Shown in pieces: positions 61,116-64,000 of a stretch of DNA of 64,000 bases. The stretch's first letter is position 1, and every line of letters starts with the position of its first letter. Under the pieces are notes generated by a model. That model was not told the origin of the DNA and searched no databases. It saw only the letters and a list, made by a program, of their open reading frames with translations. The stretch is from positions 46,465 to 110,464 of the forward strand of contig CAJNDT010000950.1 of NCBI GenBank assembly GCA_905221615.1, written 5' to 3'. The position numbers and the translations under genes are program-made. Origin of the DNA: Symbiodinium sp. CCMP2592. Taxonomy: Eukaryota; Sar; Dinophyceae; Suessiales; Symbiodiniaceae.

Positions 61116-61788
61116 ACTATAATCTGGGGGTCTCATAATAACTAGTCAATTAATTAATTAAAATAGGGTTTTGGAGCCCACTATACTATACTTATAATGG
61201 GATTATGACCGGCAAATAAAATTTTTGGGTTTTCATGATCTCAATAGGAGATAATTGCCAGTAGGACCAGGAAGTTACAATCGCCCTGTCCGGGGGTTTG
61301 CTATGCTGCCAAAAGACCAGATGTGCTGCATTTCCTTGACATGTACACCGTTTGTTTACTCTGGTTCTCTGCTTTTAATTGTTTCTCTAAACTAGATCAC
61401 ATACCCCAGGAATCAGATGTACCTGCTAGACCTAGATGACAACAGCAGACCGTCAATGAGCCAGGAACTAATCTCATAAAGTCAAACACACGAACCAGCC
61501 GTTAGCCCAAAACAATACACATGAAGTTCCGTTCGCTTGGATTGGCTGCAACAAGTAAAAGATAATATGATCAAAGGAGAAGATAGTGAATGCTTTAGGG
61601 ACCTTAATGAATGTGAGAACCCCAAACCTGAACCCTAAACGCGAATTCATGAGCGCCCCAAGCCCAAAACAGCAGCCGATGAGATATTTGGGACTATACA
61701 GACCTTTATTTTGGCAGAATGTAACAAAGCCCCATTATGGTAGGGATTCCACAAAATCCTAATTATGGCAACGGCTCGCCAGCTCTTC

Positions 61789-61796
61789 GGCTCAAG
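61789..61796 (+). promoter_or_regulatory. GGCTCAAG, possible spliced-leader relic
   Basis: The 8-mer equals the 3' end of the dinoflagellate spliced leader and lies 16 bases upstream of the ATG of the redoxin gene. Eight bases can occur by chance; the bases further upstream match only loosely. Confidence 0.25.
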
Positions 61797-61812
61797 TTCT
61801 CTATGCGTAGCC

Positions 61813-63606
61813 ATGGCCAAGGGATCCCCTCAATGGTTCGAAGAGACCCTGAAAGCCAGCGAGAAGCCCGGTGGCAAGCGTGGCATTTTTAGAATCATGG
61901 GGGTTTAAATTGAATAAAGGCATTTAATGAGGGTTGAGGGTGTTTACAGCTTGGGGAATTTCGGGTTAAGGGTATAGGTATTCAGGATTTAGGGTACTTC
62001 GAGTTTAGGCCTTAGGGTACTTAAGTCTTCGCTCTAGTATGGAGTTCCTTTGTTTAAGGTTCCGCTGCTTGCAAACAGCAGTCTAGGTACTTGGAGTTAT
62101 AGACCCTCTCAATAAGGTCCCTTTTAAGAGAGCCAGAAGTAGGGTTCGGAAGGGGTACCCTTTAATCAAGGGGTTTCCCTCATCATGCTACCCAGGTACT
62201 TGTGCCTGGTTTGGTATCGGGGGAAGTGGTGACCCTTCTGCAAGTTTTACGTGCAGGACTGTCTGGTTCTTAGTAGCGAAGGGGAATGGATCCCATGACA
62301 GTCCCTAATAGTCCCTTCCCTTATAGTCCCTTAAGGTCCCTTCTAGTCCCTTAAGGTCCCTTATAGTCCCTTAAGGTCCCTTGTAGTCCCTTAAGGTCCC
62401 TTATAGTGGTCCCTATATCTAACCCACTCCCCCATTCCCTATACTAATCACGAAGCAGACAGAGGACCTGGAGAAGCTGAAAGCTGACATGGCCTCCAAG
62501 GGTTTCGCCATTTATGGACTGGTCTCCCAGCCTCAATCCGAGGCTCAAAAGGGGAAAAGGAGGGACCCTTAACTTAGGGCTCCTAGGGGGATCTATTACG
62601 CTTTAGGGTTTAGGGTTTAGTAGGGGAAGAGGTTAATGGGGACCCCTACCCAAAAATGGCCTATAAAATGGGTATATAATAGCTCTTTTAAGGGTATATA
62701 CCTAGGGGTCCTTATTAAGGGTCCCTCCTTTTACCCTTGGAGAGGCTGACTCGGCAAAAGAGGAGTGGGGAATTTCCTACGACATCATCGGCTCGCCGGA
62801 CGTGTCTCTGGTGAAGCATCTCGCCGATGAGAAGATCATCAACCTGGTCATTAGCGACTTAGCAGCTGAGTAAGTAACTTTGATTTTGTTGGTTTGAATC
62901 CTGCCATATGTAGGGGGGTTGTGTAGCGCTATCATAATTTGAAAGGTCAACCTGCTTTGGGCCAGAGAGGTCAGCAGCAACAACCCTGGACCTTAAAACT
63001 TAAAGACCTTAAGCAGTTCAGGCGAGAAGAAGCTTAATTAAACCCTAAACGGCCCTAGAGACTAAACCTTAACCAACAACCCTAAACAAAAACCCAGGCG
63101 AGAAGAAGAACTACCCGAATGGTATGGTTCAGCCCGCTCTTCTCTTTCTGCGCCGTTCGGATCGAGCAGTGCTCTTCAGCTGGGCCGTGGCTCCTGCCTC
63201 GTGTCATCCGGGATAGCATCCCTTGTGGGGTTCAGGGTGGAGCCCATACAGTAACAGTCTGTAATAGGGCTACTATTAAGGTCCTAATATATCTATATTT
63301 TGTATATGATTCAACTACTAATGAGTCGGGGCCGTACCCAAGCTTTAGGGTTTTTTAAGGCTTTAGGGTTGAGGGTTTTAGGGGTTGCGCTTGCTTTTTC
63401 TGAGCTTCCTTCCCTGGCGAGCTGAGGACTCGTCGGAGTTTGGGTTTGCGAGCTACCGTCCGACCCCAGGCGATGTCTGGAAGGCTGTATCTAGCAAGTT
63501 AGAGGCGCCGGTGAGCGAACTTCCTGTGGTGGAAGAGATGCCTATCGATGGAGTGGGAAAGGCCCTCTATCGTTCCATGTGCAGTTGCTTTGTGCGAGAC
63601 AATTAG
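61813..63606 (+). CDS. redoxin (AhpC/TSA-like) selenoprotein gene, UxxC active site
   Basis: Thioredoxin-fold peroxiredoxin-like protein, probably a thiol/selenol peroxidase or reductase. Exons: 61813-61887 (MAKGSPQWFEETLKASEKPG), about 62059-62086 and 62196-62265 (YLCLVWYRGKW, TGA, PFCKFYVQDCL), 62459-62542 (TEDLEKLKADMASKGFAIYG then LVSQPQSE), 62745-62869 (ADSAKEEWGISYDIIGSPDV then SLVKHLADEKIINLVISD), about 63098-63215 (YPNGMVQPALLFLRRSDRAV then LFSWAVAPAS) and 63427-63606 (YRPTPGDVWKAVSSKLEAPV, ending CSCFVRDN, TAG). The order RG.W.PFC, then LK...G..IYG..SQ, then EWG..YDI, then QP.LLF....RVLF.W matches the redoxin family. TGA at 62230-62232 stands where the peroxidatic Cys is expected. 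Total about 220 residues. Introns at 62086, 62266 and 62543 are element insertions; exon 1 to 2 may hide another small exon. Confidence 0.72.
62086..62195 (+). mobile_element. intron of redoxin gene flanked by GGTACTTG repeats
   Basis: GGTACTTG occurs at 62086-62093 and 62195-62202. Removing the element and one repeat gives ..QQSRYLCLVWYRG.. in frame with the UGA codon. The donor would be GT at 62087 and the acceptor CAG at 62193-62195. Confidence 0.65.
62230..62232 (+). other. in-frame TGA, predicted selenocysteine codon
   Basis: Context is CGG GGG AAG TGG TGA CCC TTC TGC, read R-G-K-W-U-P-F-C. The frame is open and family-like on both sides, and conserved Trp, Pro-Phe-Cys neighbours place it at the catalytic position. 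Confidence 0.72.
62266..62458 (+). mobile_element. GT-AG intron made of a family N element with 20-bp tandem repeats
   Basis: GT at 62266 and CAG at 62456-62458 join L to TEDLEKLK in phase. Arms GAAGGGGAATGGATCCC and CCCCCATTCCCTATACTAAT mark family N. Inside, about four copies of TAGTCCCTTAAGGTCCCTTA occur at 62335-62405. Confidence 0.7.
62543..62744 (+). mobile_element. GC-AG intron made of a TIR element
   Basis: Arms GGGGAAAAGGAGGGACCCTT and AAGGGTCCCTCCTTTTACCC. The sequence GAGGCT occurs at both edges; splicing after GAG (62542) to GCT (62745) gives QSEADSAKEEWG. This makes the donor GC and the acceptor AG followed by G. Confidence 0.75.
63018..63110. repeat. 14-base direct repeat flanking a CCCTAAA-bearing insertion
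   Basis: CAGGCGAGAAGAAG occurs just before CTTAATTAAACCC and again just before AACTACCCGAATGG. The second copy is the start of the next redoxin exon; the stretch between holds CCCTAAA-like motifs. Confidence 0.6.
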
Positions 63607-64000
63607 AAGAAAGCCGCTGGGGTCCCCGAAGCCCTGGCTGCGAATGATGCTGCCTTGACTCATGTCAGGTGGTTGAATGCTGCCATGGCACAGACCGAGA
63701 AGATCTCCAGTCGTTGAACATGTCGTTCCTCGAAAGAAGCCTTCACAATCAATCTGCGATTCCATAAAGCCATCTTAAACCTGAAGCCATACACCTGAGC
63801 AGATGCCTTAGATGGGGATCCACTCGCTTGGGGGTTTTACCGATTAGGATGAAATTCGTAATTTGGATATATATATATATATATCAAAAATTGAATCTTG
63901 ATCATCAATATATAAATTTTGATCATCATAAATCGAATTAAGATAATTATCGCACTATATTCTGAATTATTTCTATTTTTACGTTATCATATGTCTACAT
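63607..64000 (+). other. 3' flank of redoxin gene; possible SECIS region
   Basis: No further gene is seen. Two stretches have ATGA followed by a possible stem and a GA: 63640-63710 (poor pairing) and 63848-63905 (ATGAAATTC ... (AT)n ... GAATCTTGA, better pairing but A/T-rich). Neither is a confident SECIS element by eye. Confidence 0.25.

Follow-up and report, generated by a model that had tools for sequence, protein, structure and literature searches.

Does an in-frame TGA at the active site of a Symbiodinium redoxin-like gene encode selenocysteine (Sec), or does it end the protein? The question is raised by a window of 64,000 nucleotides (the whole stretch analysed here, contig C950:46465-110464 in a 1.098-Gb assembly of 5383 contigs), in which the plus strand reads TGG TGA CCC TTC TGC at 62227-62241. 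The original prediction, made from the letters of the window, held that the TGA at 62230 lies inside W-TGA-P-F-C and that a family-like reading frame runs on both sides of it across several exons. Both points are borne out by our gene model (Table 1): six exons on the plus strand (61765-63606) give 639 nt that are fully in frame, with a product of 212 residues that matches Pfam redoxin families, and the spliced frame reads ..LVWYRGKW-TGA-PFCKFYVQDLEKLK.. around the codon, which sits at the catalytic position and is the only internal stop among the 212 codons. The gene start had been placed at 61813; there is an in-frame ATG at that position, but another in-frame ATG lies upstream at 61765. G+C at the third codon position of the exons is 0.67, and the overall G+C of the five introns is 0.44-0.48. 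The motif alone is not rare, with the 15-mer TGGTGACCNTTYTGY found at 41 places genome-wide versus 28 for a reversed control. Because this genome-wide pattern is mostly chance, the significance of the TGA lies in its gene context, not in the motif. A Pfam scan of 10 of the 30 window ORFs of at least 120 aa found no family above cut-off.

Table 1. Features of the proposed gene, its 3' flank and the tRNA-Sec loci (positions refer to the window unless a contig is named).
Feature	Position	Strand	Remarks
Exon 1, MATARQLFGSSSLCVAMAKGSPQWFEETLKASEKPGGK..	61765-61877	+	ATG 61765, second in-frame ATG 61813; frame and splice model
Intron 1, GC..AG|G	61878-62195	+	hand-chosen borders
Exon 2, WYRGKW-TGA-PFC	62196-62256	+	61 nt; splice model
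In-frame TGA	62230-62232	+	proposed Sec codon, residue 50; aligns with Cys of bacterial relatives
TGC, second (resolving) Cys of UxxC motif	62239-62241	+	Cys in 80/80 kept relatives
Intron 2, GA..AG|G	62257-62464	+	contains degenerate 10-bp tandem repeat
Exon 3	62465-62542	+	splice model
Intron 3, GC..AG|G, introner-like	62543-62744	+	inverted repeats and duplication
Exon 4	62745-62853	+	splice model
Intron 4, GC..AG|G	62854-63097	+	14-nt direct repeat across 3' end
Exon 5	63098-63195	+	splice model
Intron 5, GC..AG|G	63196-63426	+	hand-chosen borders, least certain junction
Exon 6	63427-63606	+	TAG stop 63604-63606; splice model
3' flank in full	63607-64000	+	394 nt, contig ends at 64000; SECIS unrecognised
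Open frame after TAG	63607-63717	+	36 codons, then TGA 63715-63717
tRNA-Sec loci	C3335:34821-34906; C4457:507003-507088		each near other tRNA genes

We set the intron borders manually, guided by the dinoflagellate rule (GC or GA donors and AG|G acceptors), and their regularity is therefore not independent proof of the model. In S. microadriaticum, the predominant donors are GC, GT and GA (PMC5177918). Splice sites and intron type, together with the size of the genome, suggest a host in Symbiodiniaceae. Support for the chosen borders comes from the family scores: with the borders moved to GC/GA..AG|G and the upstream ATG included, the AhpC-TSA score rose from 24.1 to 33.5 bits (Pfam cut-off 26) and the Redoxin score from 26.8 to 28.6 bits (cut-off 26.6), and an apparent insertion after the motif was gone. 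The exon 1/2 join of our first splice model, together with its seven-residue insertion after the motif, was dropped and its borders judged wrong. The model also allows us to ask whether the TGA could be avoided by alternative splicing around it or could be a sequencing error at that base, either of which we regard as very unlikely. Splicing to exon 3 from a GT at 62209, a codon boundary within exon 2, would keep the phase and remove 48 nt that include the motif, but the product would be left without YRGxWxPFC, where our alignments show the family at its most conserved (in the alignment of 80 relatives described below, these columns are mostly imposed by the search pattern). Skipping exon 2 altogether, at 61 nt, breaks the frame.

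With these borders the 212-residue product exceeds the Pfam cut-offs for both AhpC-TSA and Redoxin, in agreement with the family originally assigned. The product has the YRGxxCPxC active site of the peroxiredoxin-like subgroup, with TGA replacing the first Cys. PF13911, which we take to be the profile of SELENOU, a related Sec redoxin, is absent among the four Pfam families listed for the product at E up to 10. Using the protein of the first splice model, an NCBIfam search returned a single weak, irrelevant match, whereas 20 plasmid records were matched, 11 of them named "peroxiredoxin-like family protein" at the match. Five of these 20 records were aligned, and in all five a Cys stands at the TGA position and both Cys are present. 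Identity to these five is 23-28%, and the C-terminal tail of the Symbiodinium protein past about residue 180 is unmatched in them. When bacterial and archaeal genomes were scanned, at least 586 stretches matched and at least 429 were relatives, of which we kept 80; identity was 42% at most, across a segment of 64 residues, and the second Cys of CPxC (the +3 position) is present in 80/80. The scan pattern demanded Cys at the first CPxC position and was thus unable to find Sec-type relatives. In the 80 relatives, 24 columns reach at least 70% conservation; the product, written with Cys in place of the TGA, matches 13 of these, and five of the 13 had been imposed by the pattern. The Symbiodinium gene therefore shares with the bacterial peroxiredoxin-like family (YRGxWCPxC or YRGxHCPxC) both the YRG-x-x-C-P-x-C motif and the overall alignment, but differs in having TGA where the bacterial proteins have the first Cys and in having introns, which its bacterial relatives do not. 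Part of the first-model sequence gave nine pattern matches and no relative in viral contigs, and among solved structures the only matches were weak and thioredoxin-like (best E 0.0058).

A Sec codon requires that the genome decode Sec, and we find evidence of this elsewhere in the assembly. Two loci that share one alignment and a TCA anticodon match the tRNA-Sec family at 63.3 bits, where the cut-off is 47; matches above that cut-off also occur in 5/14 control genomes, and those in the remainder stay below it. ARAGORN did not call either of the two genes. Four weaker matches of the tRNA-Sec search, all on contig C5051, are tRNA-Cys or tRNA-Ser according to the same program. In addition, a glutathione peroxidase (GPx) exon on another contig (C4844:494000-503999, at about 1000-1600 of that piece) reads ANVASR-TGA-GFTKKHY. 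The TGA in NVASR-TGA-GFT stands at the classical GPx Sec site, and this gene is likely a second selenoprotein of the genome. A GPx family search gave three genome matches, including the exon downstream of this TGA exon; the best match is an uninterrupted Cys-type gene on contig C5051. Given the tRNA-Sec and a TGA at the GPx Sec site, this genome very probably decodes Sec. Exon-by-exon searches, which are weak for split genes in an intron-rich genome, gave no match for SepSecS or for Rdx/SelW-type proteins.

A different decoding of the TGA, its reassignment as an ordinary sense codon in the nucleus, strikes us as extremely improbable. PMC6394959 reports such reassignment in a syndinean, Amoebophrya sp. 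ex Karlodinium veneficum. However, the window gene has a single TGA, at the redox Cys, and its other Cys codons are TGC in 5/5 cases, so that within this one gene TGA does not serve generally for Cys.

Based on the conserved Cys position, the otherwise open frame, the usable splice sites, the tRNA-Sec and the second Sec-type gene, the selenoprotein reading is the best supported. We consider it quite probable that the locus encodes a functional selenoredoxin with a UxxC site, belonging to the peroxiredoxin-like family of bacterial type; its exact splice borders, Sec insertion, SECIS, expression and chemistry are inferred. The original prediction of a Sec redoxin with a UxxC active site is thus strengthened by the Cys position, the frame, the tRNA-Sec and the GPx; its accompanying statement, that the gene is expressed and not a pseudogene since no other defect is visible, fares less well, given that the frame remains open beyond the TAG and that no SECIS was recognised in the 394 nt that follow.

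These same two observations favor a pseudogene, in which the TGA would be a nonsense mutation in a former Cys-type redoxin and the TAG at 63604 perhaps a second one. We nevertheless judge a pseudogene unlikely: the stop sits at the catalytic codon, which is 1 of the 88 single-base routes to a stop in the frame and 1 of the 21 routes to TGA (counted with Cys typed at the TGA position), no frameshift is needed, there are usable splice borders at every junction, and the genome has both tRNA-Sec and a Sec-type GPx. Neither was a second copy seen that could take over, in searches that are insensitive. A search of the genome with the protein itself gave seven matches among the best candidates scored, six in the window gene and one by chance, the latter on contig C307 (E 0.926), where no redoxin-like frame was seen among the ORFs. 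A search with the AhpC-TSA family gave 13 genome matches, 0/13 with an internal stop; the window gene itself was not returned, which shows that this search misses split genes. Eight of the 13 lie on contig C5051, one with RGSWCPYC, and the five elsewhere (on C136, C2223 and C4801, and two on C1098) include no close relative, with blastp E of at least 0.025 or no match. Overall, no Cys-type backup copy was seen in these own-genome searches, which scored the best candidates and are insensitive to split genes. Contig C5051 has long uninterrupted frames and holds the uninterrupted Cys-type GPx as well as the eight AhpC-TSA matches; it looks bacterial and is probably from an associated bacterium or a contaminant.

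We next consider the 3' flank, since a selenoprotein gene would need a SECIS there. The sequence from 63607 onward had been proposed as the place to look, and in its 394 nt none was recognised. Rfam at E up to 10 listed no SECIS in 61500-64000 (one irrelevant match below threshold) and, at gathering thresholds, nothing in the whole window. An initial, less strict search for SECIS hairpins yielded nothing that we accepted, and the best score of a custom SECIS scan of 63607-64000 (6.6) was equalled or beaten by 16/100 shuffles. The same scan found nine candidates of at least 6.6 on the plus strand of the whole window. This silence means little, because Rfam is equally silent after the TGA of the GPx used as control, listing no SECIS in the 10 kb with the Sec-type GPx exon, about 8.9 kb of which follow the TGA; the 3' end of the GPx was not located in those 10 kb, and its SECIS could sit further on. 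The custom scan of the GPx 10 kb gave a best score of 10.8, for a candidate not established as a SECIS. Across the whole genome, Rfam SECIS_1 matched nowhere at E of 0.001 or better, a result that is uninformative because the controls are also silent. The contig end has no match elsewhere in the genome, nor did any contig prove to overlap it.

The frame that stays open after the TAG has a protein-like composition. Its G+C by codon position, with the closing TGA counted, is 0.57/0.54/0.59, compared with 0.56/0.43/0.67 in the exons, and 63607-63717 has no other match in the genome. This piece is either 3' UTR that is open by chance or former coding sequence, and since the frame is open past the TAG, a second nonsense change is possible.

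Returning to the selenoredoxin, we propose that a nuclear dinoflagellate gene encodes a 212-residue thioredoxin-fold "peroxiredoxin-like" protein of the AhpC/TSA type, in which WCPFC would have turned into WUPFC. With tRNA-Sec, the TGA would be decoded as Sec under the control of a 3' UTR SECIS, which may lie beyond the contig end or diverge too far for our models to recognise it. The protein may act as a thiol/selenol oxidoreductase or peroxidase: Sec50 would attack the oxidised substrate, Cys53 would resolve this intermediate by forming a selenylsulfide, and the protein would be recycled by a reductase, for example thioredoxin.

Replacement of Cys by Sec in the thioredoxin-like active sites of algae is already known, and the window gene fits this class. 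PMC7539508 counts 29 Sec genes in S. minutum (26 elsewhere in the paper), among them three clustered PRX selenoprotein genes. The same paper describes SymSEP, a Sec family limited to Symbiodinium with a Trx-like domain and CxxC homologs in algae and bacteria, and AhpC_b of the diatom Thalassiosira oceanica, a UxxC AhpC/TSA protein whose nearest homologs are prokaryotic Cys proteins. UxxC Redoxin and Prx-like selenoproteins are also listed for prokaryotes in a review (PMC13188914). Compared by these descriptions, the window gene resembles SymSEP in its proposed Sec form in Symbiodinium, its Trx-like character and its CxxC homologs in algae or bacteria, and resembles AhpC_b in its AhpC/TSA domain, UxxC motif and prokaryotic Cys homologs, although AhpC_b is a diatom protein. 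The PRX genes of S. minutum, as described there, are Sec genes of peroxiredoxin type in what is likely the host group of the window gene, but they form a cluster of three, whereas our own-genome searches show one locus here. The window gene is possibly one of the published Symbiodinium SymSEP or PRX genes. A more novel history, namely a separate Cys-to-Sec switch in a peroxiredoxin-like gene of bacterial type, acquired by dinoflagellates, that is single copy, has no Cys backup, is distinct from PRX and SymSEP and possibly uses an unrecognised type of SECIS, is a tentative suggestion that we think is rather unlikely.

A gene caller for which any TGA means stop would truncate a gene of this kind. 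Each confirmed case corrects the annotation and adds to what is known of how coral symbionts use selenium, a group in which redox enzymes matter for heat and light stress. With a tRNA-Sec and a Sec-type GPx in the same genome, the selenoprotein claim can be tested directly.

The introns of the gene contain several repeats. Intron 3 has 24-bp terminal inverted repeats (62549-62572 and 62715-62738) that are 96% complementary, and it is flanked by a GAGGCT duplication (62540-62545 and 62742-62747) that is split GAG|GCT at both junctions. This structure is evidence for the exon 3/4 junction that does not depend on the splice rule. By sequence likeness, and with 40 of 506 candidates scored, sequence similar to intron 3 is dispersed, with at least 62 matches in at least 40 places including intron 3 itself. 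The introners of S. microadriaticum, as described in PMC9860276, have 4-bp duplications and inverted repeats that supply the splice sites; intron 3 resembles them, but its duplication is 6 bp versus 4 bp there. At the 3' end of intron 4 there is an exact 14-nt direct repeat, CAGGCGAGAAGAAG, at 63019-63032 and 63095-63108, and an acceptor at the first copy would give an early stop. Lastly, about half of intron 2 consists of a degenerate 10-bp tandem repeat (TCCCTTNTAG / TCCCTTAAGG) at 62317-62416.
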